From Nonlabens antarcticus (lineage in GTDB: Bacteria; Bacteroidota; Bacteroidia; Flavobacteriales; Flavobacteriaceae), in contig NZ_JADFCO010000065.1 of NCBI RefSeq assembly GCF_015356755.1, positions 558,001 to 622,000 of the forward strand: DNA of 64,000 nucleotides, in the 5' to 3' direction. This document shows positions 2,305-45,559 of this stretch, piece after piece. The notes beneath the pieces are model-generated. The model did no database searches, was not told the origin of the DNA, and was given only the letters and a program-made list of their open reading frames with translations. The translations under genes were made by a program, and so were the position numbers. Position 1 is the first letter of the stretch, and each line of letters begins with the position of its first letter.

Positions 2305-4716
2305 TTATTCATCTTCATCCAGATCTTTTGCGATAATCGGAATTGCAGGTTTTTTGATGGTTTCTTTGTTTGCAATCAATCGTTCTAAAGAAAGCAACAT
2401 ACTAGGAAGTAGTAATAAGTTAGCAAGCATTGCAAATAGGAGCGTGGCACTAACTAATGCTCCCAGAGCTACGGTTCCTCCAAAACTAGAAATCGTGAAC
2501 GTACTAAAACCGAAAAATAACACAATGGAGGTATAAAACATACTCACGCCAGCCTCTCGCAGCGCACCGAAAACAGATTTCTTAATCTTCCAGTTGTTTG
2601 CAATAAGCTCTTGACGGTATTTGGCTAGAAAGTGAATGGTATCATCTACAGAAATACCAAAGGCAATAGAAAAGACAAGAATGGTGGAAGGCTTTATGGG
2701 CACGCCTAGATAGCCCATGAGTCCTGCGGTAATGATTAGCGGTAATAAATTGGGAACTAAGGATACTAAAATCATTTTAAATGATTTGAACATCCAGGCC
2801 ATAAATAACGCGATCAATAGAATTGCAAGGGATAGGGAAATAATCAAATTATTGATCAAATAATTTGTTCCTTTTTGAAAGACTAAGGCCTTTCCTGTTA
2901 GCAGTGTATTATATTTTTCTGGCGGAAAAACGTTGTTGATTTCTGTAAGGAGATTTTCCTCCACACGTTCCATGCGATCTGTTCCCATGTCTTTCATAAA
3001 GGTAGTAATGCGCGCATACCTACCAGTACTATCTACATAGCTGGACATTAATCCTATGTCTGTGCCGCTACCTTCCATTAAAGGCGCCATAAAAAGACGC
3101 TCATTTCCTGTAGGTAAATCATAGAATTCGGCATCACCGCCATAAAAGGCCTGTTTTGAATATTTAACGAGACTGACAACAGACAGTGGTCGGGACAATT
3201 CTGGAGTTTCAAGAATGTGTTCTTCCAGTCGGTCCAATTTCTTTAAGTTTTTTGAAGAGGTAACGCCTTCCTTTTTCTTAGTGTCAATGACAATTTCAAC
3301 CGGCATGATCCCATCAAAACTATTTTCAAAGAATTTAATGTCCTTATAAAATTGCTCGCCTTTAGGCATATCCTCAATAAGACTTCCAGAAACACGTATC
3401 TGTGCTATTCCTATCATGCTTATGATCAAAATAATCACACTGGAAATATAAATGGTGATTCTGCGATTTCGCACCATTTGCTCCATCCAACTTACAAACG
3501 CACCTATCCATCGTTTCCTGAGATGTTCTAAATGGCGTTTTTTAGGAACCTTTAAATAGCTGTAAGTAATAGGAATGATCATCAAACTGATCAAGAAAAT
3601 ACACACGATACAAATGGACGCTACGACACCAAATTCTTTTAAAAGCGTACTTTCTGTAAAAATAAAAGTCGCAAAACCACTTGCTGTGGTTAGGTTAGTC
3701 ATTAAAGTAGCATTTCCCACTTTAGTAATAACGCGTTGCAGAGATTTGGCCTGGTTGCCGTGTTTTTTTATCTCCTGCTGGTATTTATTAATTAAGAAGA
3801 TACAGTTGGGTATTCCTATAACGATAATTAATGGGGGAATTAAGGCGGTCAGTACAGTGATCTCATAGCGCAGTAATCCTAAAATTCCAAAAGCCCACAT
3901 GACGCCTATCACAACGGTAATGATTGAAATAAAAGTGGCTCGCCATGACCTGAAGAAAAAGAAGAAAATCCCAGAAGTGATTAGTAGGGCAGCAAGTAAA
4001 AACAGACCTATTTCATCTACGATATTTTTAGCATTAAGAGTGCGTATGTATGGCATCCCGGACACCTTTATGTCAATGTCTGCATTGGTACTAAATCGCT
4101 CAATCAATGGCTGCAAATCATTAAGGACAAAAACCTGGCGGACTTCCGTATTTACGATATCCTTTTTAAGATATATCGCTGTACGTAGAACACTGTCCTT
4201 TTCAGAAAAAATAAGATTTTTATAGAATGGTAGATTGCTGTAAAGCTCCTTTTTTACGTTTCTTAATTCCTGATTTGAAGTGAGCGGTTCTTGAACCAGC
4301 TTTTTAGTTTCAAACTTAGTTCCATCTTCTGATTTGATCAGCTCTGGAAGATTAGCGGTAGAAAGCACCAAATCAACCTCCGCAAATGTTGCGATGCTAT
4401 CTGCTAGCTGGTTCCAAGCATTAAATTTTTGATAAGATTGTAACTCACTATCTTCAATACCCAAAATAATCAAGTTTCCTTCCTCACCAAATCTTGATAG
4501 AAACTCGTTGTATTCAAGATTTACGGGATGGTCATCTGGCAGTAGGTTTGCCTCTGTATGTGTGAATTGGAGGTTTTTCCATTGCGTCGCAAAACCAATA
4601 GTGATCAAAACAATAGCGCTCAACAATACGATTCTATTGCGCAGTATCAATCCCGCTACACTATCCCAAAAATTAAAACTGAATAATTTACCCATTGACT
4701 TTAGACCAGAATACAA
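2305..4716 (-). CDS. RND/MMPL-family transporter
   Basis: This 803-aa inner-membrane protein has the duplicated RND layout. One membrane helix near residues 25-45 is followed by a large periplasmic loop to about 230, then a five-helix block. A second lone helix lies near 420, with a second loop and a second helix block (about 630-790). The motif GISVDDTIHF in the second half is typical of the MMPL/HpnN branch, with the Asp pair likely involved in proton relay. The length is shorter than drug-efflux RND pumps, and no membrane-fusion or TolC partner is adjacent. This fits a lipid or hydrophobic-substrate exporter; the substrate is unknown. An alternative start is Met8 (MGKLFSF). Confidence 0.85.
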   Translation of the reverse strand: MYSGLKSMGKLFSFNFWDSVAGLILRNRIVLLSAIVLITIGFATQWKNLQFTHTEANLLPDDHPVNLEYNEFLSRFGEEGNLIILGIEDSELQSYQKFNAWNQLADSIATFAEVDLVLSTANLPELIKSEDGTKFETKKLVQEPLTSNQELRNVKKELYSNLPFYKNLIFSEKDSVLRTAIYLKKDIVNTEVRQVFVLNDLQPLIERFSTNADIDIKVSGMPYIRTLNAKNIVDEIGLFLLAALLITSGIFFFFFRSWRATFISIITVVIGVMWAFGILGLLRYEITVLTALIPPLIIVIGIPNCIFLINKYQQEIKKHGNQAKSLQRVITKVGNATLMTNLTTASGFATFIFTESTLLKEFGVVASICIVCIFLISLMIIPITYSYLKVPKKRHLEHLRKRWIGAFVSWMEQMVRNRRITIYISSVIILIISMIGIAQIRVSGSLIEDMPKGEQFYKDIKFFENSFDGIMPVEIVIDTKKKEGVTSSKNLKKLDRLEEHILETPELSRPLSVVSLVKYSKQAFYGGDAEFYDLPTGNERLFMAPLMEGSGTDIGLMSSYVDSTGRYARITTFMKDMGTDRMERVEENLLTEINNVFPPEKYNTLLTGKALVFQKGTNYLINNLIISLSLAILLIALFMAWMFKSFKMILVSLVPNLLPLIITAGLMGYLGVPIKPSTILVFSIAFGISVDDTIHFLAKYRQELIANNWKIKKSVFGALREAGVSMFYTSIVLFFGFSTFTISSFGGTVALGALVSATLLFAMLANLLLLPSMLLSLERLIANKETIKKPAIPIIAKDLDEDE

Positions 4717-4768
4717 ATGTAGTGCTTAAAGAAATGCGGGTTGAAATGAGTGGACTGGAATTAGTCTA

Positions 4769-6952
4769 TTACAACTCGAGATAAAATGTAAATTTTAAGG
4801 AGATGTTATCTTCAAACGTCGGTAAATGGTAAGCTCCATAGCGGTAAGCAGCACTAATTCCAAAACCGTAGAGTAGCTTATTGAGCTCAAAACCACTTTC
4901 TAAATAACCGTGTTCTAAAGTTTGAAAATCAACATTCAAATGCTGTTGCTTGTCATCTAGGTTCCCAATCGCATATCTTGAAATTAAAACTAATTCTGGC
5001 TGTAAAAACGAGGCTATTTTGAAGGGTGCAAACTCGTGTTTGATCTGACCTATTGCAATTCTATCAGAGAAAAATTCATTAAAAAACATCGTCTCAAAAC
5101 TGCGACGACCAGCTACTGAAAAACGTTTAAATATGGTCTCTTTATTAGGTGCATTAGGATAGGCATGAAACAAATGGGTTAAAGGAACCTCGCCACTTGC
5201 ATAGTGCCCTTCCACAGAAAATTCTGTCCGTGATTTGTCAGACTGTACAATGGTGTAAGCTCCCTTAGCAGATACTTTTAAATAATTAAAGTCAGCATCG
5301 AGTACATCCTTGAATCCCTTAGTTAATTGAGCGCTAAATACAGGATATCCAGCCGTGGTCTCCTCATAACCCTTCGGTGTGCGCATGTAATCACTATATG
5401 GACTCCAGCGAGCACCTACTTTAAGCTCAGATAAAGTGTACTGATCGAATGGATCTGATCCTGGTTGAAATGCATACGTAGTAGTTTGATCAATTTGCTT
5501 TCGCGAAAGCGAAACTTCACTCAAAACCGATGGTAATAATCGCTGTTGTAAAGAGGTTCCAACTTCTCGATACTTATAAAATGTTGGAATATTTACCAAC
5601 CTAGGTTCAAATAGAGAATAAACACGAGCATCAGTCAAGAAACTTTCTGCTGCAAACTCATTAATATCGTCGGTGTAAAAAACGTTTAACCATGTATTAT
5701 TCTCTTTGCTCAAACGATAACCTGTATTGACATTAAATTTGAGCTTTTTGTCCTTGGTACCATAAGCTACATAGCCTCCGAACCTGAGGTTTTCAAATAA
5801 TTTCTCGTTAGTCGTGCCACCTATCCCTAACCGGAAGGCTTCATAATTGTTATATTTAACTAGGTATTTCAAGTCGATATCAAAAAAGCCCACGGGATAA
5901 TAACCCACTTTGAACTTGTCTAAGGTTTCTAGTTTTTGGGTAACATTTGTGGCGATTACAACGCTATCGATGGTCTTATAGGAAGCAAATTCGTCATTTG
6001 TATTATCGGCACGAACTCTAAATTCTGTCCAGTAATTATCAGGCTTCGTAATTGATTCTTCCAGTACCTCTTTTATCAAACCTGGACGGCCGTAATCCTG
6101 TTTTAAGGAAGTCTCGAGATCGTAATTGATAGCTTTCAAAAACACATAGAGATCCTCATTTTCTTTCTTTTTACCTTTCTCAATTCCCACTTGGAATCTA
6201 GCACCGAAGAGTTCTAACTCTTTTTTATCCTTTTCTTTTTTAATGGATAGGAAACGTTCTGTGTGGAACCACAATTTCAGATCTTCCTCATAGACAAAAT
6301 TATGAATCGCTTGAACTTCTAATTTTCCTGTATTTGAAAAAACGGCTCTTGCCAGCGCTTTAGTTTCTTTATCTACATAAAAACTACCATTCAATGTGGA
6401 GGGATTGCGATCGTTGATGGGTTGAAAATCTATACGGGTTACAGGTCTTCCGTCGATAACGGAATCCTGTTTCTTTTGATAAAAATAATTGCGAATTCCC
6501 TTTTCACTGATGGGGTTTATAAACTCGCGATCAAAAATAATGTAGGGGGAGTGGTACGCATTAACAGACTGAAAATTGATGTTGTAAATAGGATACACAG
6601 GTTCGTCAAATCCAGGCATATCTGCACCCGTGATTTGTTCCTTCAATCCGTATTCTTCTGTGTATAAATAGGTAGAGGTTTTCTCTGCAAAAAACACATC
6701 AGTCTGCTTTAGAGTTTTGCGCAACTCTGTTTTTTTGTAACCAGGACCAGTGATGGCTTCTGGATCACCCGTAATTTTTAAATTCTCGTAACTCTTATAT
6801 TGAAATTTATCCAGTGCTTGCTCAATATCGTTTGATGGAGATTTAAGCAGGATCTCTTTCATTAGTATTAGATCTTCAGGAAACGGAATCCTGTTTTGTG
6901 CTAAAGAAGTTATAGTGATCAAAAAAAAGAACAGAGTCAAGAATTGCTTCAT
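4769..6952 (-). CDS. DUF5686-like outer-membrane beta-barrel protein
   Basis: I chose the ATG at 6952 because it gives a clean signal peptide (MKQFLTLFFFLITITSLAQN); a longer ORF start adds 40 residues without a signal. The 727-aa product has an N-terminal beta-rich periplasmic part with NDRNPSTLNGSFYVDKETKA, followed by many alternating amphipathic strands ending in FTFYLEL, as for an outer-membrane barrel. It resembles the gene ending at 22534 but lacks the CarboxypepD_reg-like domain. Function is unknown. One copy of the 16-bp palindrome family is embedded and read as LSRK. Confidence 0.7.
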   Translation of the reverse strand: MKQFLTLFFFLITITSLAQNRIPFPEDLILMKEILLKSPSNDIEQALDKFQYKSYENLKITGDPEAITGPGYKKTELRKTLKQTDVFFAEKTSTYLYTEEYGLKEQITGADMPGFDEPVYPIYNINFQSVNAYHSPYIIFDREFINPISEKGIRNYFYQKKQDSVIDGRPVTRIDFQPINDRNPSTLNGSFYVDKETKALARAVFSNTGKLEVQAIHNFVYEEDLKLWFHTERFLSIKKEKDKKELELFGARFQVGIEKGKKKENEDLYVFLKAINYDLETSLKQDYGRPGLIKEVLEESITKPDNYWTEFRVRADNTNDEFASYKTIDSVVIATNVTQKLETLDKFKVGYYPVGFFDIDLKYLVKYNNYEAFRLGIGGTTNEKLFENLRFGGYVAYGTKDKKLKFNVNTGYRLSKENNTWLNVFYTDDINEFAAESFLTDARVYSLFEPRLVNIPTFYKYREVGTSLQQRLLPSVLSEVSLSRKQIDQTTTYAFQPGSDPFDQYTLSELKVGARWSPYSDYMRTPKGYEETTAGYPVFSAQLTKGFKDVLDADFNYLKVSAKGAYTIVQSDKSRTEFSVEGHYASGEVPLTHLFHAYPNAPNKETIFKRFSVAGRRSFETMFFNEFFSDRIAIGQIKHEFAPFKIASFLQPELVLISRYAIGNLDDKQQHLNVDFQTLEHGYLESGFELNKLLYGFGISAAYRYGAYHLPTFEDNISLKFTFYLEL
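5497..5510. repeat. Palindrome GCTTTCGCGAAAGC, coding copy
   Basis: Perfect 14-bp core inside the DUF5686-like barrel gene, read on the minus strand as Leu-Ser-Arg-Lys. The left flank is T instead of the usual C. Confidence 0.95.
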
Positions 6953-35639: not shown

Positions 35640-36329
35640 TTACACCACGATCAACTTATACCCATAACCTCTCACATTTACAATTTCAATCTGTGGGTCA
35701 TCTGCGAGTTTCTTGCGCAACTTTGATATAAATACATCCATGCTGCGACCAGTGAAAAAATCATTGCTACCCCATAATTTTTCAAGGATATAAGCACGGT
35801 CGAGTACTTTATTTTTATTTTGAAATAAATGAAACAGCAAATGCGCTTCTCTGTGGGTAAGCTTAACGGGTTCTTCCTTTTTAAAGGATAGTTTTTGTTG
35901 TGGGAAATTGAATTCAAATGCTCCTATAATAAAGCTATCGGCAGATTGTTGCGTGTTTTTACGATCTAAAAGATTGTGAATGCGCACGATCAACTCTTCC
36001 ATGGAGAATGGTTTTTTGATATAGTCATTTCCACCTATATGAAAACCGTGAAGAACGTCTTCCGTTTGTGATTTTGCGGTTAGGAAGATGATGGGAATGG
36101 TTTCGTTTTGTTGTCTGATCTTCTTTGCCAATTCAAACCCATCAAGCAGCGGCATCATCACGTCCAGCACGAGAATGTCAAACTCGGATTTTTTGAAGCT
36201 TTCTAATGCAATTTTTCCATTTTCGCATAAGGTGACTTGCAAGTCCCGCGTTTCCAGACTTTCTTTAACGATCATCGCTAGGGAAGGTTCATCTTCCGCC
36301 AGCAACACTTTTATAGGAAGATTATTCAT
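35640..36329 (-). CDS. OmpR-family response regulator
   Basis: The 229-aa cytoplasmic regulator has a receiver domain with acidic pocket AEDE (11-14), phospho-acceptor Asp56 in LVLDVMMPLLDG and Lys in NDYIKKPFSMEE. A C-terminal winged helix follows, with LTHREAHLLFHLFQNKNKVL and the recognition part MDVFISKLRKKL. Its start overlaps the end of the histidine kinase gene by 8 bp. OmpR-type regulators bind direct repeats spaced 10-11 bp, which matches the GTTAAC modules upstream of the kinase operon and of two GLPGLI genes. Confidence 0.95.
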   Translation of the reverse strand: MNNLPIKVLLAEDEPSLAMIVKESLETRDLQVTLCENGKIALESFKKSEFDILVLDVMMPLLDGFELAKKIRQQNETIPIIFLTAKSQTEDVLHGFHIGGNDYIKKPFSMEELIVRIHNLLDRKNTQQSADSFIIGAFEFNFPQQKLSFKKEEPVKLTHREAHLLFHLFQNKNKVLDRAYILEKLWGSNDFFTGRSMDVFISKLRKKLADDPQIEIVNVRGYGYKLIVV

Positions 36330-37881
36330 GTGGAAGATGGATTTTAAAAGTGGTAGGATTTAATGATACCGTTATGCTGCCTCCATGCTTTTCAATAATG
36401 GCTTTGGTATAAAACAAGCCTATACCGTACCCTTTAATGTTGTGCTGGTCACCTTGAGGAACTCGGTAGAACTTCTCAAAAAGGTGTTTTACATCTTTTG
36501 GCTTGAGACGGTCACCGTTATCACTTATAGATAATAAGATCTCTTTATTATTTAAGACAACCGTCAATTTTATAATCGAGCCTCCATACTTAATGGCATT
36601 ATCTAACAAGTTATTGATGGCATTCTCGATATGAAACTCATCACCATAAAACTCAACGGGAACATCTGGAAGAGCTAGCTCCATTGTTTTTTCAGTTATG
36701 GATCTATAGCGATTGACTGACTCTTCAATAATTGCACTCAAACTAAGCTTCGTTTTCTGTAGCGCTAGTTGTTCACTATCTACAGTTGCCGTTTCCAGTA
36801 GTTTTTCCACCATTAGATTTAGTTTAGTCAACTGTTCCCGTCCTACATTTAAATACCGGTTTGATTTTTCCCAATCTCCTGCGGTCGTAAAATTCTGAAC
36901 GCCTTCCAATGCAGCGCTCGCCGTGGCAATAGGAGTTTTGAACTCGTGAGTAATGTTAGAAATCAGGTCGTTTTTGATAAGACTCAGCTGTTTTTGTTTA
37001 CGGATGATAAATAACATGTAGAAAAGGCAAAAGATCACGCCGCAGATCAAAAGAAACGAAAGCGATAGTCCTGCAAGGTTCCGTTTGAAAAGGGTTGTTT
37101 CTTGACCGGAATAAAGCATTTTGAGCTTAGTGTTATTATACAATTGTGGATTATTACTTTCTACTTCATAATCACCGTTAAGGTTACCTATTTCAAAATC
37201 ATCCTCTCCGTCGTTGTATTTAAAACCATTGCTGATCTGGATATCATTCTTTTTCAAAGTTAGATCCATTAGACTGTCCAATGATTTAAGATCTAAACTA
37301 TTGGTTGAAAACGATAAGGTGAATCTTTTGTCGATTTTACTTAGCTCTCCAGAAAACGTGTCGTCTGAAATAGCAATTTTCGATATTGATACGTTATCAC
37401 CGGACTCCAAGGAATCTTTCACTCCCAGAAACCGCTTCATTTTTACGCCTACATCCTCTTTATCCTTTTTCGAATCTTTAATATTTGTATCTAAAAACTT
37501 TGATTTCTTAATGGTAACGTTGTCGTTTTTCTCTGGGAATTTGATAGAGTCATCCTCAATCCTCAAATATTCTGAGGATTTAAGATTCTTACTCCTCGTT
37601 TCATTACTCTTTGTTGAGAGAGAAATCATATTGTTAATTAAGGAATCCACTCTTCGTTCCGGTAACTCTCCATCCGCGCTTAAGAAGCCCATTGTACTTT
37701 TTTTTGCAGTATTTGTAAAATAATCTGAAACGGTAAGGTCAAATGAGGTTTTGATATCACGATCGAGCTGGCGTTTACTCTCTTCATAGTTTTTGAAAAC
37801 CCAGTATAGCTGTATTGATAGCGTTATGGCAATCACGACGCTCATGAGGACCAATAAAAATCTATATCTATTATGATTCAT
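36322..37881 (-). CDS. Sensor histidine kinase
   Basis: The 519-aa inner-membrane kinase has TM1 near residues 8-29 and a large, Asp/Ser/Lys-rich periplasmic sensor of about 240 residues. TM2 is near 270-293. The dimerisation domain has His312 in SNITHEFKTPIATA. The ATPase domain has N-box ENAINNLLDNAIKYGG, G1 ISDNGDR and G2 GYGIGLFYTKAIIEKHGG. It is first in a kinase-regulator operon, transcribed away from the redoxin gene. The shared 134-bp gap holds a three-box GTTAAC module 40 bp from the kinase start. Confidence 0.95.
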   Translation of the reverse strand: MNHNRYRFLLVLMSVVIAITLSIQLYWVFKNYEESKRQLDRDIKTSFDLTVSDYFTNTAKKSTMGFLSADGELPERRVDSLINNMISLSTKSNETRSKNLKSSEYLRIEDDSIKFPEKNDNVTIKKSKFLDTNIKDSKKDKEDVGVKMKRFLGVKDSLESGDNVSISKIAISDDTFSGELSKIDKRFTLSFSTNSLDLKSLDSLMDLTLKKNDIQISNGFKYNDGEDDFEIGNLNGDYEVESNNPQLYNNTKLKMLYSGQETTLFKRNLAGLSLSFLLICGVIFCLFYMLFIIRKQKQLSLIKNDLISNITHEFKTPIATASAALEGVQNFTTAGDWEKSNRYLNVGREQLTKLNLMVEKLLETATVDSEQLALQKTKLSLSAIIEESVNRYRSITEKTMELALPDVPVEFYGDEFHIENAINNLLDNAIKYGGSIIKLTVVLNNKEILLSISDNGDRLKPKDVKHLFEKFYRVPQGDQHNIKGYGIGLFYTKAIIEKHGGSITVSLNPTTFKIHLPHE

Positions 37882-37920
37882 ACGGTAAAGGTGCTCTTTT
37901 CCCGCGGTATGAAAAAATCG

Positions 37921-37976
37921 GTTAACACTCGTTAACGGTCGTTAACTTAGGTAGGTATTAAAACATTCCATCTTTG
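37921..37976 (+). promoter_or_regulatory. GTTAAC triple-box operator and promoter, module 1
   Basis: GTTAAC at 37921, 37931 and 37941 (period exactly 10 bp), then after 22 bp CATCTTTG at 37969-37976. Orientation of the promoter part points to the redoxin gene at 38016; the boxes also lie 40 bp upstream of the divergent kinase gene, so autoregulation is possible. Confidence 0.8.
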
Positions 37977-38015
37977 GTTAATCAAAATTATACTAAAACA
38001 TAAAACCACATTAAA

Positions 38016-38738
38016 ATGAAAAAATCAGTATTTATCTTAATTCTTTTTTCCTTTTTTAAAGCACCAGCACAAGAAATGAAAGTAGTCTATAAGCAAAGTG
38101 ACGGAAAACTAATGACAGAATCTGAATATATAAGTATGAGAGACGGGTTTGAAGAAAGAATGAAAAGAGAAGGCAAAGCTGGAGAGATCAAAGAAGTAAT
38201 AGTTGATAGCATTACTAAAAAAATCTTGTACAAAAACTTTGACTTAGGGTTTGTGTCAGTCACTACTAATGAGATAGAGCATATAGATTCCTACTTAAAG
38301 AAGAAACTTCCATTTACCGAATTACAGCTTTTAAATTCCAACAAAATCAAGCTTAGCGATTTGGAGGGAAAACCAACATTATTAAGTTTTTGGTTTATCG
38401 GGTGTGTACCGTGTATCAAAGAATTGCCGGCGTTGGAGTCCTTGAAGAAAAAGTATGGATCAAAAGTTAATTTCGTTGCAATTACATTCAATAAAAAAGA
38501 ACAAGTAAAATTGTTTTTAGCAAAGAGAGATTTTACTTACGAACACATTGTTGACGCACAGAAATTCGTTGATGAAATAGGAATAAACACCTATCCACGA
38601 AATATTATTCTGGATAAAAAGGGTAATGTTCAAATTATAAATGGCTCAATACCGTCCACTACAATGACGGTAAACAAAAAGCAAGAATTAAAATTTGATT
38701 TGTCTGAATATGAAACGCAGTTGAATAATTTGCTGTAG
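38016..38738 (+). CDS. Exported TlpA/thioredoxin-like protein
   Basis: The 240-aa product has a signal peptide (cleavage near APAQ, residue 19) and an N-terminal helical part of about 85 residues. A thioredoxin-fold domain follows with CxxC at 130-133 (SFWFIGCVPCIKELPALESL), then VNFVAITFNK and cis-Pro-like YPRNIILDKKGNVQ. It probably works as a periplasmic thiol-disulfide oxidoreductase. It is the first gene read from a GTTAAC module and lies between the two-component pair and the GLPGLI genes, so redox control may be one output of that regulon. Confidence 0.85.
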   Translation: MKKSVFILILFSFFKAPAQEMKVVYKQSDGKLMTESEYISMRDGFEERMKREGKAGEIKEVIVDSITKKILYKNFDLGFVSVTTNEIEHIDSYLKKKLPFTELQLLNSNKIKLSDLEGKPTLLSFWFIGCVPCIKELPALESLKKKYGSKVNFVAITFNKKEQVKLFLAKRDFTYEHIVDAQKFVDEIGINTYPRNIILDKKGNVQIINGSIPSTTMTVNKKQELKFDLSEYETQLNNLL

Positions 38739-38951
38739 CGGGAAACTTATAAAAATGGTTGGGTAATTGTTGCCTAACTCAATATTCCAAATATCTTTAA
38801 AAGATCTCTAAATCTAAAATTTGACTTAGTGATCTAAAATCAATAAGTTAAACTCAAGAAAACTAGATCTAATCTCATTTTCCCTAATCTTCAAGTTCCT
38901 TATTAAAGCTGTCAGGATAGAGACGCATATATAAAGGAATAAACAAAATCG

Positions 38952-39008
38952 GTTAACACTCGTTAACGGTCGTTAACTTAGGTGGGTATGAAAAATGGTG
39001 CATCTTTG
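38952..39008 (+). promoter_or_regulatory. GTTAAC triple-box operator and promoter, module 2
   Basis: GTTAAC at 38952, 38962 and 38972, then after 23 bp CATCTTTG at 39001-39008; the first GLPGLI gene starts 24 bp further at 39033. Confidence 0.8.
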
Positions 39009-39032
39009 GAAGGAACTAAAACCCTTAGGATC

Positions 39033-39893
39033 ATGAAGAATATTAAATGGATGGTGGTGGCCGTTGCTTATATTGCTTTCGCGAACGCGAGCGCTTTACA
39101 AGCCCAACAAGACTTCAAAGCCGTGGCACATTTTGCATTCCAGACAAAATTTGATGTAAACGAAGGCGACGAGGTGGATAAATTTACCCAAAAAACCGAC
39201 GACATAGCACTGAATGAAAAGGTTCAAGATGCCCTCAAAAGAGGCAGCCAGCAGGAGTTTATTATGGAATTTACCGCCGGTGAATCTTCTTACAAAGAGA
39301 TCAAAAAACTGGCAAAACCAATGGGAAATGGCGATTATAGCCTATCCTTCAATGCGCACAATGGTTCTACCGCTGCGGTTTACAAGGATTTGTTGAAGCA
39401 GCAATATATCAAGTCTGAGGACATACTAGGAAAGGATTTCCTCGTTACCGGACCATTGGAATCCTATGACTGGCAACTCACGGGTGAGACCAAGACTATA
39501 GGAAAGTACACCTGCTATCAAGCTACTTTTAAACCCGTATTATCTCAAGCAGAAATAGAAGCGGATGAGGCGGAAAAGCAACAAGGCGGCATCTTATCCA
39601 TGATTCCAGATGAAGATAATACCATAACGGTGTGGTACACTCCAGAGATCCCCATAAGTAATGGACCTGGTGTTTATCAAGGGCTGCCTGGTTTTATTCT
39701 AGAGGTCAAGGAAAAACATACAATTCTCTTGTGTACCAAAATTGAGATCAATCCAAAAAACTTTGATGAGGTGAGTAAGCCTAAGTCTGGTAAAATGATC
39801 AACGTGGCAGATTTTGAGGCTCTCAAGATTGAAAAATTAGGAGAGGCAGGAAATAGAAGCAGTGGTATGTCCGTCAATATTATTAAGGGATAA
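39033..39893 (+). CDS. GLPGLI family protein 1
   Basis: I set the start at ATG 39033 (MKNIKWMVVAVAYIAFANAS) because upstream starts lie inside the promoter module. The 286-aa product has a signal peptide ending ALQAQQ, so it should be periplasmic or surface-exposed. The family motif appears as GPGVYQGLPGFILEVKEK near residue 210, with Phe in place of Leu. The mature protein is beta-rich with no cysteine pair motif. GLPGLI (TIGR01200/Porph_ging) proteins are Bacteroidota-specific and uncharacterised. A palindrome copy with one mismatch lies in the signal peptide codons. Confidence 0.88.
   Translation: MKNIKWMVVAVAYIAFANASALQAQQDFKAVAHFAFQTKFDVNEGDEVDKFTQKTDDIALNEKVQDALKRGSQQEFIMEFTAGESSYKEIKKLAKPMGNGDYSLSFNAHNGSTAAVYKDLLKQQYIKSEDILGKDFLVTGPLESYDWQLTGETKTIGKYTCYQATFKPVLSQAEIEADEAEKQQGGILSMIPDEDNTITVWYTPEIPISNGPGVYQGLPGFILEVKEKHTILLCTKIEINPKNFDEVSKPKSGKMINVADFEALKIEKLGEAGNRSSGMSVNIIKG
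39075..39088. repeat. Palindrome, one-mismatch copy in GLPGLI 1
   Basis: GCTTTCGCGAACGC: one base differs from the core; read as Ala-Phe-Ala-Asn-Ala in the signal peptide. Confidence 0.85.
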
Positions 39894-39936
39894 ATCATAC
39901 CGTGATAAAAAAATCAATGACTAAAATAGGTTCCAA

Positions 39937-40800
39937 ATGAAAAAAGTAGCAGTTATCCTTTTATGTATCGCTTTCGCGAAAGCGAACACCTTACAAGCAC
40001 AGCAAGAATTTAAAGCTATTGCACATTATGTAGCGCAAACTAAGTTTGATATTAAACCAGATACCACCAAATCTAAAAATCCAGAACAAGATGCCATGAA
40101 GGCCAAATTTATGGAGTTGTTGAGTAAGGGGCAAAAAAATGAATTCACGCTAGAATTTACCAATAAGGAATCCAATTACAAAGAGGTTCTGCAATTGGCT
40201 AAACCATCTGCCGGTAGTGGAATGTCTATTAGTGTTTCTGGAAATGGGAACGCGTCAAATACCGTTTACAAAGATTTGCAAGCACAACAATTTGTAAAAG
40301 AGGACGAGATTATGGGGAAAGAATTCCTAATCGTCGATGAATTGCCACAATACAACTGGCAACTTTCTCAGGAGACTAAAATGATAGGGAATTACTTGTG
40401 CTATAAAGCAACATACTTGCCTGAACTTACAGAAACTCAAAAGGAAGCTAAAGCTAAAAAGGAAGAAGAAAAAGAGGCGGGTGGCTTATTTGCACAAATG
40501 GCAGACAAAGATAAAACTATAACTGCTTGGTACACACCAGAAATTCCTGTAAGCAATGGTCCAGGAGAATATCAAGGATTGCCAGGGTTAATTCTTGAAG
40601 TAAAGGAGCTCAATACAATTCTGCTAGTCACTAAAATCGAAATGAATCCAGAGAAAGACTTAGATATTAAAAAACCAAATAGTGGGAAAGAAATAAATCA
40701 AAAGGATTTCGATGCACTGGCCAAAAAGAAATATGAGGAGCGGGTCAAGATGAATGGTGGCAGTAACACATTCATTACAACAGAAGTAATTCGCCATTAA
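39937..40800 (+). CDS. GLPGLI family protein 2
   Basis: The 287-aa product starts MKKVAVILLCIAFAKANTLQ; the palindrome encodes AFAKA in the signal peptide. Motif GPGEYQGLPGLILEVKE is near residue 212. Its mature part is very similar to GLPGLI 3 (shared FTLEFTNKES-type, LPQYNWQLSQETKMIGNYLC, KEAKAKKEEEKEAGG and SGKEINQKDFDAL), so the two come from a recent duplication. It has no GTTAAC module of its own and follows GLPGLI 1 by 43 bp, so it is probably read from module 2. Confidence 0.9.
   Translation: MKKVAVILLCIAFAKANTLQAQQEFKAIAHYVAQTKFDIKPDTTKSKNPEQDAMKAKFMELLSKGQKNEFTLEFTNKESNYKEVLQLAKPSAGSGMSISVSGNGNASNTVYKDLQAQQFVKEDEIMGKEFLIVDELPQYNWQLSQETKMIGNYLCYKATYLPELTETQKEAKAKKEEEKEAGGLFAQMADKDKTITAWYTPEIPVSNGPGEYQGLPGLILEVKELNTILLVTKIEMNPEKDLDIKKPNSGKEINQKDFDALAKKKYEERVKMNGGSNTFITTEVIRH
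39970..39983. repeat. Palindrome GCTTTCGCGAAAGC in GLPGLI 2 signal peptide
   Basis: Perfect core at codons 12-16, read Ala-Phe-Ala-Lys-Ala. Confidence 0.95.
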
Positions 40801-40855
40801 TTTCAAACGAGTTATTTTTTCCAGTCTATCAATTTTTATGCAGTATCAAAAAACG

Positions 40856-40912
40856 GTTAACACTCGTTAACGGTCGTTAACTTATATGAACCTGAGAAAT
40901 AGTGCATCTTTG
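40856..40912 (+). promoter_or_regulatory. GTTAAC triple-box operator and promoter, module 3
   Basis: GTTAAC at 40856, 40866 and 40876, then after 23 bp CATCTTTG at 40905-40912; GLPGLI 3 starts 24 bp further at 40937. Similarity to module 2 extends on through GGAA-GAACTAAAA into the signal peptide codons. Confidence 0.8.
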
Positions 40913-40936: not shown

Positions 40937-41806
40937 ATGAAAGATTTTAAATGGATGGCCGTTGCTGTTGTTTATATCGCTTTCGCGAAAGCGAACACCC
41001 TACAAGCCCAGCAAGAATTTAAAGCGATCGCAAATTACATATCGCAAACTAAAGTCGATATCAAACCGGATACCACCAAAGCAAAAAATCCGCAACAGGC
41101 AGAATGGCGAGCTAAAATGATGGAGTCATTAAGCAAAGGTCAAAAGAATGAGTTCACGCTGGAATTTACTGGTAAAGAATCTTATTATGAAGAGGTGAAG
41201 CAGCTTGCTAAACCGACTACAAATGGAGGTTTTTCCATGACTTTTTCTGGAATGGGAAATGCTTCAAATACCATCTACAAAGATTTGCAGAAACAACAAT
41301 TTTTTAAAGAAGACGAAATCTTGGGTAAGGAATTCTTGATTGTTGATCAACTGCCACAATATAACTGGCAACTTTCACAAGAGACTAAAATGATAGGGAA
41401 TTACCTCTGTTACAAAGCAACTTATCTGCCAGAATTAACAGAAAGCCAGAAAGAGGCTAAAGCTAAAAAAGAAGAAGAGAAAGAAGCTGGTGGTTTATTA
41501 GCACAAATCGAGGATAAAGACAGAACAATCACGGCATGGTATGCTCCAGAAATTCCCGTTAGCAATGGACCAGGAGAATATCAAGGATTACCAGGATTGA
41601 TTCTGGAGGTAAAAGAGTCTGAAACTATTATACTGTGTACAAAAATAGAGATCAATCCCGAAAATGATCTGAACATCAAAAAACCGAGAAGCGGAAAAGA
41701 AATAAATCAGAAGGATTTTGATGCACTTTCCAAAAAGAAATATAAAGAACGTATGGAAAGAAGCGGCGGTAGTGGTGTAATCGTCACAGAAATAATTCGG
41801 AATTAG
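40937..41806 (+). CDS. GLPGLI family protein 3
   Basis: Start set at ATG 40937 (MKDFKWMAVAVVYIAFAKAN), downstream of the promoter module; longer ORF starts run through the operator. The 289-aa product has a signal peptide with palindrome-encoded AFAKA and the motif GPGEYQGLPGLILEVKES. The signal peptide resembles GLPGLI 1 while the mature part resembles GLPGLI 2, which suggests a chimeric or stepwise duplication history. Likely periplasmic or surface-exposed, function unknown. Confidence 0.9.
   Translation: MKDFKWMAVAVVYIAFAKANTLQAQQEFKAIANYISQTKVDIKPDTTKAKNPQQAEWRAKMMESLSKGQKNEFTLEFTGKESYYEEVKQLAKPTTNGGFSMTFSGMGNASNTIYKDLQKQQFFKEDEILGKEFLIVDQLPQYNWQLSQETKMIGNYLCYKATYLPELTESQKEAKAKKEEEKEAGGLLAQIEDKDRTITAWYAPEIPVSNGPGEYQGLPGLILEVKESETIILCTKIEINPENDLNIKKPRSGKEINQKDFDALSKKKYKERMERSGGSGVIVTEIIRN
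40979..40992. repeat. Palindrome GCTTTCGCGAAAGC in GLPGLI 3 signal peptide
   Basis: Perfect core, read Ala-Phe-Ala-Lys-Ala at the same place as in GLPGLI 2. Confidence 0.95.
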
Positions 41807-41890: not shown

Positions 41891-42739
41891 ATGAAAAATA
41901 TATTTTTTATTATAGCTCTGTTAGGAGCAGTTTCCTGGTCTACCGCACAGGACATATATGGTGAAGCGACCTATTTCTCTAAAGCCTCCATTGATAAAAG
42001 CTGGATGGAAGGTAACCGTGAAATGAGTGCAGAGCAACGCAAGCGCATTGAAGAGAACCTCAAAAAAGCAAGTGAAAAAACTTTTGTTTTAAGATTCAAT
42101 AGATCAGAATCTGTATGGAAGGAAGAAGTAGCACTAGCAGCTCCAGGACAAGGTGGCGGCTGGGGAAATTTCATGGGTTCATCGATGGGTGGTGAAAAAT
42201 ATAAGGACATGACTACACAAACCTTCACAGAGCAGCGTGATATGATGGGTAAAACCTTCCTGATTAAAGATGATCTTCCAGTATTGGACTGGCAAATTAC
42301 AGGTGAAACAAAAAAGATAGGGAATTATACTGTGGTGAAAGCTACAGCGGTGAAGAAGAATGATGACCTGGATATGAGTGCTTTTAGAAGACGACGTGAT
42401 GATGATAAGAAAAAGAAAGATGATGATGAGGCCACTAAAATCACAGATATGTTTGAAAAAGATGACACGACTACTGTAACCGCATGGTTCACACCAGAAA
42501 TTCCCGTTCAACACGGTCCAGCAGAATATGGTGGTCTTCCAGGGTTGATCTTAGAAATCAATGCAAATAATACAACCATGTTATGTACAAAAATCGCTCT
42601 TAATCCAGAGAATAGAGACGACATAGAACCTGCTACTAAGGGCGATGAAATAAAACAAGCCGAGTATAACGCTACGTTCACAAAGAAAATGGAGGAAATG
42701 TCACAACGCTTTCGCGGGAGAGGCAGTCGTAGAAATTAA
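41891..42739 (+). CDS. GLPGLI family protein 4 (divergent, highly charged)
   Basis: The 282-aa product has a signal peptide MKNIFFIIALLGAVSWSTAQ, different from the other three. The family motif is HGPAEYGGLPGLILEINAN near residue 215. A strongly charged insert sits before it (FRRRRDDDKKKKDDDEATK), and the C-terminus is Arg-rich (RFRGRGSRR). The latter is encoded next to a half-palindrome CGCTTTCGCGGGAG. It lies 84 bp after GLPGLI 3 without a GTTAAC module and ends at a terminator. Confidence 0.9.
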   Translation: MKNIFFIIALLGAVSWSTAQDIYGEATYFSKASIDKSWMEGNREMSAEQRKRIEENLKKASEKTFVLRFNRSESVWKEEVALAAPGQGGGWGNFMGSSMGGEKYKDMTTQTFTEQRDMMGKTFLIKDDLPVLDWQITGETKKIGNYTVVKATAVKKNDDLDMSAFRRRRDDDKKKKDDDEATKITDMFEKDDTTTVTAWFTPEIPVQHGPAEYGGLPGLILEINANNTTMLCTKIALNPENRDDIEPATKGDEIKQAEYNATFTKKMEEMSQRFRGRGSRRN

Positions 42740-42811: not shown

Positions 42812-45559
42812 ATGAATAAAATTATTCTTGCACTAGTCGCTCTGCTTCTCACAGCTTTTACAGCACAGGCACAAAATATTAAAATTACAGGAACTATCAT
42901 CGATAGTCTGGGAACACCCGTTGCGATGGCAAATGTTATCGCCTATGGATCTAACAATTCCATGGGTGCTTTTGGGATCTCTAATACAGAAGGTCGCTAC
43001 CAGCTAGCGAACTTAAAGCAAGACAGTACCTACGTTTTGAAAGTATCCTTTTTAGGACTAAAACCTATCGAAGAAACGGTAACTAAGATTCAGGAGGATA
43101 TGGTAAAGAATTTTATCATGATGGATGGTGCAGACCAACTGGATGCCATCAGCATCGTTTATGAAATGCCGGTCACTATTAAAGGCGACACCATCGTTTA
43201 CAATGCCGATAGCTTTACTAACGGTACCGAGAAAAAGCTGGGCGATGTCCTCAAAAAATTACCGGGAATGGAAGTGAACGCTGAAGGCGATATCCAGGTC
43301 GAGGGAAAAGCCGTGGAACGCGTATTTATAAATGGTAAAGAATTTTTTGAAGGAGATTCCAGACTTGCCACTAAAAATATTCCCGCAGACGCGATTTCAA
43401 AGGTTGAGGTTTTAAAAAATTTCAACAACGTGAGCCAGTTAAAAGGATTAGGAAATGACGATGATCGGGTTGCTATCAATATTAGATTGAAAGAAGGTAA
43501 AGAGAAGTTTTGGTTCGGAGAATTGACTGCCGGTGGTGGTTTTGGAGGTGACGATGAGCGTTATTTGGTTAAACCTAAAGCCTTTTATTACAGTCCCAAT
43601 CTTTCCATTAATGTGCTAACAGATTTTAATAATCTGGGATTACCGGCATTTACCTTTAGCGATTACAGAAGATTTACTGGAGGACGACGTGGTAATACAA
43701 GACAGGCAGGAACAGATATTAATGCAGGTATAGGCGCTGGTGGTCTAGGAGCTTTTGGTAATAATCAGGCATTAAATGTAGAGAGTAAATTTGCAGCACT
43801 CAATGCTTCTGTAAAAGCAAGTAAGTCTTTAGATTTTAACGGATTTGCAATTTTTTCCAGTACGGATACAGACGCACGTACAGATTCCCGAGTGTCTTTT
43901 ATACAAAACGGGACGACAGAGAACACGATAGATCAGAGTTTTCAACGTAATGAACTTGCCATATTTAAACTGGGCGGTGATTATAAACCCAATTCAAATT
44001 TTTCATTGGAATACGATGGACAACTCAATATAAGCGATGTTAGCCAGATTTCAGACCTTACCTCCTCGCGCAACCAGCCAGCGGTATCTGGTGGTTTTGA
44101 AAACGTTGTTGAAGACATTGATCAACTCAATGCACAAAAACCTATGGTGATTGATCAATCATTGAACGCCTACTACACAGCATCTGATAGAAGTATTTTC
44201 ACATTTGAAGGGCGATATGTAGATCAGGAAGAGGATCCTTTTTACAATGCTATTAGAAATATAAGAGATCAACAAGATCCAGAACCATTTACCGACCTGA
44301 ACGGTAACGGTGGGCTGGGACTCATACAATCTGACCCTTATAACATCAACCAGCGTAAACTAGTGGATACTAAAAGACTCGATGCTAAGGGTGATTATTT
44401 TTACATCTTAAATAAAACGAGTAATCTCAACCTTACTTTGGGAACGATACAGGTGGATCAAGACTTTGACTCTAGCATTTTTCAGATTTTAGATGATAAC
44501 TCTATTAATGAACTGTCAGATCCAACTTTAAGAAACAATGTCAATTATAGGTTTTCAGATTTGTATGCTGGCCTTCACTATAAGGTGATTTTTGACAAGT
44601 TCACAGTAACGCCTGGTTTTAACGTACATCATTTTAAAACGACAGATATTCAAAACGTTGCAACTAACGAAATTTCATCCAGTAAATTTTTGCCGGATCT
44701 TAATGTTAGATATCAGTTTAAATCTTCAGAATCATTGAATCTTGATTATGCTCAGACGATGAGTTTTAGTGATGTTGATAGTTATGCCCAGGGAATCGTA
44801 TTTAACAATTACAACCGATTAAACCAGGGGAATAATCAGTTAGAAGGTGCCATTAACGATCGTCTTTCTTTAAGGTATAATAACTTTAATATGTTTAACT
44901 ACACCACCATTTTTGGAAACATAACTTACACAAAGCAGCGGGATGCATTGCAATCCAGCACAATATTGAATGGTATCAACCAGGTGAGTACTAATATCAA
45001 CCAGGCTTTAGCAAATGAATCGGTGAGTGGTTTTGGAAGCTTTACTAGAGAATTTGGAAAAATTAGAGCAGGATTGAATGCAAATGTTTCTCTAAATACA
45101 TTCAATAATATTATCAATACAGAAATATTAGAGTCAAAAAGCCTTTCTCAAGGTTATGGAGCCAGTGTTCGCAGTAATTATCAAGATGGGGTGAATTTTG
45201 ATGTGAATTATAATATTACCTATAACAATAACGATAATGGAAATAGAGAAACCAACTCTACCAGACAGACTTTGGGAATCGATGCAGACTGGCAGATAGG
45301 GGAATCCTTGCAACTGGTGGCAGAATATGACCTAACTATATTTAAAGCTACTGGTGGTGTTAAGAATAATTTGGACTTTTTAGAAGCTTCTTTGTTTTAC
45401 AATCAACCTGATTCTAAATGGGAATACAAGCTTGCGGCGACAAATCTCTTAAACACTAGATTTAATAGTAACAACAATTTTGGGCAGATCGCCACGAGTA
45501 CTAACGACACCTACGTGTTACCTCGATACGTTTACTTACAGTTCAAGTACGATATCTAG
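42812..45559 (+). CDS. Outer-membrane beta-barrel protein with CarboxypepD_reg-like domain
   Basis: The 915-aa product has a signal peptide (AFTAQAQ, about residue 21) and a CarboxypepD_reg-like domain (about 24-110, IKITGTIIDSLGTPVAMANV). A TonB-receptor plug-like part follows, with LGDVLKKLPGMEVNAEGDIQ and KAVERVFINGKEFFEGD. A long barrel ends in VLPRYVYLQFKYDI. This is the outer-membrane protein type that often accompanies GLPGLI genes. No SusD partner is next to it, so it is not an obvious polysaccharide locus. Ligand unknown. Confidence 0.88.
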   Translation: MNKIILALVALLLTAFTAQAQNIKITGTIIDSLGTPVAMANVIAYGSNNSMGAFGISNTEGRYQLANLKQDSTYVLKVSFLGLKPIEETVTKIQEDMVKNFIMMDGADQLDAISIVYEMPVTIKGDTIVYNADSFTNGTEKKLGDVLKKLPGMEVNAEGDIQVEGKAVERVFINGKEFFEGDSRLATKNIPADAISKVEVLKNFNNVSQLKGLGNDDDRVAINIRLKEGKEKFWFGELTAGGGFGGDDERYLVKPKAFYYSPNLSINVLTDFNNLGLPAFTFSDYRRFTGGRRGNTRQAGTDINAGIGAGGLGAFGNNQALNVESKFAALNASVKASKSLDFNGFAIFSSTDTDARTDSRVSFIQNGTTENTIDQSFQRNELAIFKLGGDYKPNSNFSLEYDGQLNISDVSQISDLTSSRNQPAVSGGFENVVEDIDQLNAQKPMVIDQSLNAYYTASDRSIFTFEGRYVDQEEDPFYNAIRNIRDQQDPEPFTDLNGNGGLGLIQSDPYNINQRKLVDTKRLDAKGDYFYILNKTSNLNLTLGTIQVDQDFDSSIFQILDDNSINELSDPTLRNNVNYRFSDLYAGLHYKVIFDKFTVTPGFNVHHFKTTDIQNVATNEISSSKFLPDLNVRYQFKSSESLNLDYAQTMSFSDVDSYAQGIVFNNYNRLNQGNNQLEGAINDRLSLRYNNFNMFNYTTIFGNITYTKQRDALQSSTILNGINQVSTNINQALANESVSGFGSFTREFGKIRAGLNANVSLNTFNNIINTEILESKSLSQGYGASVRSNYQDGVNFDVNYNITYNNNDNGNRETNSTRQTLGIDADWQIGESLQLVAEYDLTIFKATGGVKNNLDFLEASLFYNQPDSKWEYKLAATNLLNTRFNSNNNFGQIATSTNDTYVLPRYVYLQFKYDI

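Follow-up and report, generated by a model that had tools for sequence, protein, structure and literature searches.

Organization of the locus and its triple boxes

The window, by which we mean the whole 64,000-nt stretch of Nonlabens antarcticus DNA analysed here, carries a sensor histidine kinase gene and a response regulator gene on the minus strand. Divergent from them lies a cluster encoding a redoxin, four GLPGLI proteins and a 915-aa protein (Table 1). A 26-bp triple box, GTTAACACTCGTTAACGGTCGTTAAC, occupies the region between the two gene groups and recurs twice within the cluster, identical in all three copies. Judged from sequence, spacing and conservation, this box is very probably the operator of the adjacent OmpR/PhoB-type regulator, which would activate the divergent operon and control its own. 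The regulator consists of a receiver domain (PF00072, 105 bits) and a winged helix (Trans_reg_C, PF00486, 73 bits), the make-up of the OmpR/PhoB type, and its adjacent cognate kinase carries HisKA and HATPase_c domains. The two genes overlap. The initial annotation had placed the regulator right next to the box. The two do share a locus, but the regulator is the second gene of the predicted kinase–regulator operon, and the gene nearest to copy 1 is the kinase: 39 bp separate copy 1 from the kinase ATG, against ~1.6 kb to the regulator gene.

The same annotation had described three exact 26-bp arrays with a 10-bp period, and these are borne out by exact matches. Allowing up to three mismatches, we found five matches in the window against 0.07 expected, two of them being the same arrays displaced by 10 bp. 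Across the 3.27 Mb of the genome that were searched, the exact triple box occurs only as the three window copies, no further triple box with up to three mismatches was found besides the 10-bp shifts, and the double box is likewise confined to the three arrays. Matches to the TTAAC core at two mismatches are no commoner in the rest of the genome than those of the control. A scatter of the box over the genome, which the initial annotation had itself named as fatal to its proposal, was therefore not observed. Each box is soon followed by a redoxin or GLPGLI gene, as had been noted, and each of these genes opens with ATG. Two alternative listed starts, 38982 (GTG) and 40886 (ATG), fall between box and -7 element.

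Table 1. Coordinates of the two-component genes, boxes, promoter elements and divergent genes, given as positions in the window
Feature	Position	Strand	Remarks
OmpR/PhoB-type response regulator	35640..36329	-	predicted ligand of the boxes; assigned by domain and family models
Sensor histidine kinase	36322..37881	-	HisKA, HATPase_c
Degenerate kinase-side -7 element, CACCTTTA	37886..37893	-	followed after 4 nt by the kinase ATG; start predicted to be leaderless
Triple box, copy 1	37921..37946	+	between kinase (-) and redoxin (+); equivalent position in relatives
-7 element of the redoxin promoter, CATCTTTG	37969..37976	+	22 bp after the box; position conserved in 85/90 loci
Redoxin/TlpA-like protein	38016..38738	+	probably secreted
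Triple box, copy 2	38952..38977	+	upstream of GLPGLI gene 1
-7 element, CATCTTTG	39001..39008	+	23 bp after copy 2
GLPGLI protein 1	39033..39893	+	
GLPGLI protein 2	39937..40800	+	
Triple box, copy 3	40856..40881	+	upstream of GLPGLI gene 3
-7 element, CATCTTTG	40905..40912	+	23 bp after copy 3
GLPGLI protein 3	40937..41806	+	
GLPGLI protein 4	41891..42739	+	
915-aa protein	42812..45559	+	CarboxypepD_reg domain; probably an outer-membrane barrel; final gene of the cluster

Association of the box with the kinase in the family

We surveyed 299 genomes of the family, using the backwards pattern as control. The exact triple occurs in 41 of them and a relaxed pattern, TTAACAnnnGTTAACn5TTAAC, in 83 (93 sites); the control gave no match in 299 genomes for either. 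An orthologous kinase is carried by 94 genomes at a cut-off of E <= 1.5e-49, which lies near the next row (3.9e-49, the second kinase of genome G047) and was fixed after the exact-triple search and before the relaxed one. All 41 exact-triple genomes and all 83 relaxed-site genomes are kinase carriers, and none belongs to the other 205. Besides the window, kinase loci were fetched from 91 of the 94 carriers; G170 and G194, with hits at or near a contig start, were left out. The regulator matches on the strand of the kinase in 92 of 92 loci. At a half-site period of 10, 83 of the 92 loci hold at least 14 of 15 core matches within 150 bp of the kinase start, while periods of 7–9 and 11–14 reach this level in 0/92.

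The anatomy of the box was counted over 90 loci, skipping L157 (G205; kinase start mis-set) and L161 (G062; contig end). In a separate look the boxes of G205, G062 and G194 were also seen, those of G062 and G194 on other contigs. In 73 of the 90 loci, 38–41 bp separate the box from the start predicted for the kinase; some of the others have a mis-set start.

A kinase match at paralogue level (1e-25) is present in at least 291 of the 299 genomes, and the regulator is 43–46% identical to the RprY-like paralogues of the family. At the paralogous RprX-like kinase loci, no box was found in any of the 20 fetched. These loci bear on the idea that another regulator, either a sister OmpR-type protein such as an RprY-like paralogue or an unlinked factor, binds the boxes, with the adjacent pair as a passenger. 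Such an arrangement would fit the TTAAC triples upstream of the kinase in RprXY-like pairs of other families, as well as the TTTAACA core of the Riemerella PhoP motif in the passages available from its description (PMC9603813), a comparison of motif text alone. The confinement of the sites to genomes with this kinase, mostly adjoining it, and the boxless paralogous loci of widespread paralogues speak against it, and we consider it very improbable.

A second, named set comprised 80 loci found via the regulator in another collection; some species may be in both sets. The box is present in 59 of 65 examined named loci (L251–L314, L329). Five of the six boxless ones have a contig ending inside the kinase gene, and the sixth, L281, has two boxes only. 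Those with the box include Winogradskyella, Aquimarina, Polaribacter, Lutibacter, Leeuwenhoekiella and Kordia and, among the Cytophagales, Reichenbachiella, Roseivirga and Algoriphagus. The remaining 15 named loci have regulators of at most 53% identity; none of the 14 scanned has the box (best 12/15), and L316, without a kinase match, was left out.

Repeat unit and promoter geometry

The consensus of the 90 loci reads CG[G/C]TTAACAC[T/A]C GTTAACACTn GTTAAC, 22 variable bases, CA(t)(a)TTTG. GTTAAC had initially been given as the box unit, of which the triple repetition stands; the conserved unit, however, is TTAAC(AC). A palindromic reading of GTTAAC does not hold, since box 1 opens with C in 31 of the 90 loci and the unit extends asymmetrically with AC. 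On this alignment the true unit is a direct repeat, GTTAACACTn, with TTAAC as its core.

The -7-like elements proposed to follow each box are present, at 22, 23 and 23 bp, as CATCTTTG, which differs by one letter from TAnnTTTG. The further proposal of a promoter common to all three copies holds for copies 2 and 3, which agree at 17 of 19 positions around the -7, but not for copy 1, which shares with them the core and CATCTTTGG. Across relatives, the target-side -7 begins exactly 22 bp past the box in 85 of 90 loci, which puts TTTG at offset 26; among the named loci, TTTG lies at exactly this distance of 26 bp in 58 of 59. In the kinase direction, TTTG stands at offset 30–32 in 80 of 90 loci, corresponding to a -7 spacer of 26–28. 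This kinase-side element opens with TA in 77 of 80 cases; the target-side element opens with CA in 61 of 85 and with TA in 13. In 77 of 90 loci, an ATG or GTG that begins an open frame of >300 codons follows the kinase-side -7 after 3–6 nt (after exactly 4 nt in 66), and a start codon lies at the same distance in 55 of 59 named loci.

In the consulted parts of the transcript map of F. psychrophilum, the sigma-A -7 box TAnnTTTG lies at -12 to -5, and leaderless mRNAs make up 5.5% of the mRNAs mapped (PMC9723704). With this numbering, the target promoter would have the boxes between about -60 and -35, and transcription of the kinase gene would begin at its start codon; the kinase mRNA is thus predicted to be leaderless.

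The constancy of the spacer also bears on whether the three copies might be no more than a young local duplication or a repeat element that plays no part in regulation. They cluster within 3 kb and share a 31-bp core at 31/31 positions, as a young duplication would. Their upstream flanks (-100 to -2), though, have only 26–30 of 98 positions in common, about what chance gives. Downstream, copies 2 and 3 are alike at 79 of 100 positions and the other pairs at 34 and 35. The flanks have diverged around an unchanged core, and the family-wide footprint keeps a 22-bp spacer that is free in sequence and fixed in length, which leaves a meaningless repeat with next to no probability.

Predicted divergent target genes

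The four GLPGLI proteins of the window score 140, 171, 170 and 158 bits against TIGR01200 (cut-off 50). In relatives, as at window copy 1, the box lies between the kinase–regulator operon and a divergent gene. The first divergent gene of the 90 loci encodes a GLPGLI protein in 60, a protein of 100–165 aa in 26, a redoxin in two (the window and G088) and another product in two (G010, G250). Two named Aquimarina loci have the redoxin first and GLPGLI next. Linked clusters comprise redoxin, GLPGLI and barrel protein, and in Aquimarina also a protein with an FDTGAS aspartyl-protease-like motif, seen by eye. Whether the targets are secreted was assessed from their N-termini, inspected by eye, and from Pfam. 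The small first-gene proteins (L072–L077, L086 and others) have a signal-like N-terminus; the single example searched, of 120 aa, gave no Pfam match at 0.01.

Within the fetched loci, second boxes (score >=15) occur only in the window, with its three copies, and in L141 and L158. G562, from another family, has two identical sites ~1 kb apart before GLPGLI genes. Together with the window, this means that operator copies have accompanied GLPGLI gene copies more than once.

A structure model of GLPGLI protein 4 (pLDDT 84) resembles the N-terminal part of PNGase F-II (PNGF-II; Z 16) and VioE (Z 10). LolA, RseB, MucB and EPDR1 follow at Z ~8–9, middling values that may merely reflect a common arrangement. 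This likeness of the model suggests a possible periplasmic lipid-/lipoprotein-binding fold for GLPGLI and hence a possible envelope role.

A different repeat, the palindrome GCTTTCGCGAAAGC, was also observed in the window, with 13 exact copies (5497, 9404, 13620, 17011, 22400, 27414, 32446, 39970, 40979, 45628, 48754, 56167 and 61511) and three one-mismatch copies; with one mismatch allowed, 0.00 are expected over the 64 kb. The copies at 39970 and 40979 lie inside the coding sequence of GLPGLI signal peptides (IAFAKAN).

Sites unlinked to the kinase and occurrence in the class

Nine of the 93 relaxed sites, in eight genomes, are not linked to the kinase. They precede genes for redoxins (2), aspartyl proteases (3), OMP_b-brl_3 receptors (2) and proteins of 186/187 aa (2), one of the last without a Pfam match and the other with a weak DUF4440 match below cut-off. 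By their N-termini and domains, the products of the genes behind all nine are probably secreted or outer-membrane proteins, in agreement with the link to envelope genes that had been anticipated. These classes recur among the nine sites and overlap with those of the kinase-linked clusters. An xAnnTTT at 22-bp offset is found at six of the nine. In L331 and L333 (~2500), from two genera, the triple box is flanked on one side by an aspartyl protease gene and on the other by a divergent gene, whose product appears, by eye, winged-helix-like with a C-terminal hydrophobic stretch.

In the class, 76 of 395 genomes have TTAAC triples, but ~27 (by our own count) have control matches; beyond the family, this five-base pattern therefore has only moderate specificity. 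We picked 20 class loci by hand, and 18 of them have an adjacent kinase–regulator pair: 11 are RprXY-like, 5 have GLPGLI and 2 a redoxin. The RprXY-like class loci with TTAAC triples are L231–L237, L242, L244, L245 and L248, while the 20 RprXY-like loci of the family lack them. Since RprXY-like pairs stand beside these class sites, TTAAC triples may be an older feature of the wider regulator family, with the GTTAACACTn-N22-CAnnTTTG module as its GLPGLI-linked branch. At the kinase–regulator pairs L238 and L249 (~2800–6260), from distant relatives in other families, overlapping TTAAC triples amounting to four boxes separate the kinase from the gene of a ~390-aa redoxin, which is the layout of window copy 1.

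Proposed mechanism

We propose that three regulator protomers would bind head to tail on one face of the DNA, each on a half-site GTTAACACTn with a 10-bp period. Counted from the predicted transcription start of the divergent operon, the half-sites would occupy roughly -60/-55, -50/-45 and -40/-35, the last abutting the -33 region. Bound in its phosphorylated form, the regulator would recruit RNA polymerase to a promoter whose -7 (CAnnTTTG) is mostly off-consensus, and the redoxin, GLPGLI and outer-membrane-barrel genes would be switched on. The same boxes lie upstream of the predicted opposite-strand kinase promoter, with ~5 bp more (half a turn) between them and its -7, and the kinase–regulator operon, with its predicted leaderless mRNA, would be autoregulated through them. 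Two additional operator copies would serve GLPGLI genes in this genome. The signal is probably envelope or redox stress.

The adjacent regulator might instead bind and repress the divergent operon, releasing it under stress, or activate the kinase operon only. The boxes end beside the target -33 region, where a repressor could also block the polymerase, and the Riemerella PhoP regulon holds repressed as well as activated GLPGLI genes in the portions of its description at hand (PMC9603813). Yet a 22-bp spacing fixed to the base pair and an off-consensus target -7 facing a consensus kinase-side -7 resemble activator-dependent promoters, and the boxes leave the -7 uncovered. On balance, we judge repression or kinase-only control unlikely.

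Beyond the Riemerella genes, several observations weigh against the proposed mechanism. In the window, copies 2 and 3 have TTTG at offset 27, a spacing of 23 rather than 22, and the kinase-side -7 is degenerate. The relaxed pattern is missing in 11 of the 94 carriers; the other sampled genomes of the genus, G010 and G242, have degenerate boxes only (16 and 15 of 18), and the first divergent open reading frame of G010 does not encode GLPGLI. Among the nine unlinked sites, three lack the -7 at offset 22 and several are flanked on the other side by a divergent gene, a possible target instead. TTAAC triples also accompany the kinases of RprXY-like pairs in other families, so the specificity may extend to sister regulators. 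The genomes are also related, and the counts are therefore not independent. As a whole, the co-occurrence with the kinase (83/83), the fixed spacing (85/90), the empty paralogous loci (0/20) and the period of 10 argue strongly for the tie between operator, regulator and regulon that the initial annotation had predicted.

Comparison with known systems

The kind of system is already known. OmpR/PhoB-type operators lie next to the -35/-33 region, and the boxes are placed likewise, as direct repeats at about one helical turn near that region. The arrangement resembles the E. coli PhoB PHO box, in which a winged-helix regulator meets direct repeats spaced by roughly one helical turn; according to the portion of the source used, PhoB molecules bind in tandem, head to tail, to direct repeats of 11 nt (PMC4415409). 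Unlike PhoB with its 11-nt units, the box has a 10-bp period, the sequence GTTAACACTn, three units and a Bacteroidota -7 promoter of the TAnnTTTG type.

A second likeness is to PhoP of Riemerella anatipestifer. In excerpts of the DNA affinity purification sequencing (DAP-seq) study, PhoP has the core TTTAACA, binds its own promoter region and directly targets GLPGLI genes, which it regulates in both directions (PMC9603813). The TTAAC system would share a TTTAACA-type core, GLPGLI targets and, as predicted here, autoregulation, the likeness being one of motif text and not of regulator sequence. Unlike PhoP, which is global with 583 peaks in the same excerpts (PMC9603813), it has mostly one linked site per genome.

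The regulator was tried against two curated families and falls below the cut-off of both: RprY (NF051850, 250.9 bits against 370) and Bacteroidota PhoB (NF053854, 185.6 bits against 270). RprY is nonetheless its nearest NCBIfam model (251 bits), and 11 of the 20 picked class loci are RprXY-like with TTAAC triples; the sub-threshold score and the 20 boxless RprY-like paralogue loci of the family set it apart. The closest named regulator is that of Nonlabens ulvanivorans, at 71% identity. The structure model of the kinase has low confidence over residues 66–191, which concerns the fold of the sensor region.

Porphyromonas gingivalis HaeSR (PG0720-PG0719) is likewise a Bacteroidota two-component pair, whose regulator binds its own promoter and those of TonB-dependent receptor genes in the sections considered (PMC3764172, PMC8757827). 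It differs in that the targets described there are hemin-acquisition and capsule genes, and TTAAC is absent from both texts. In the open-licence PMC literature, we found no published TTAAC or GTTAAC operator for such a regulator, nor a description of the operator with its fixed spacing to the promoter, of a leaderless kinase mRNA as predicted here, or of the regulon.

Implications for GLPGLI proteins and envelope regulation

GLPGLI proteins are barely studied in the open-licence literature, where the word turned up in three papers and accessions and names led to two. The triple box gives the group an exact operator with a candidate regulator, lets transcription starts be predicted and adds co-targets, namely redoxin, aspartyl protease and outer-membrane barrel. 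A response-regulator regulon in non-model bacteria is thereby made testable directly from sequence, and for the -33/-7 polymerase of Bacteroidota the locus would be a natural case of an activator held at a fixed distance from its promoter.

More speculatively, and with considerable doubt on our part, the findings might be read jointly as a near-private, base-pair-locked bidirectional switch in Flavobacteriales and Cytophagales with a GLPGLI feedback loop to the kinase. A kinase with leaderless mRNA and a divergent GLPGLI/redoxin/outer-membrane-barrel operon would then share one three-protomer operator, mostly the only one in the genome. GLPGLI, with its predicted LolA/RseB-like fold, would supply periplasmic lipid-/lipoprotein-binding parts that report envelope damage to the kinase, and the system would correspond, in Bacteroidota, to stress sensing of the RseB/MucB or Cpx type.

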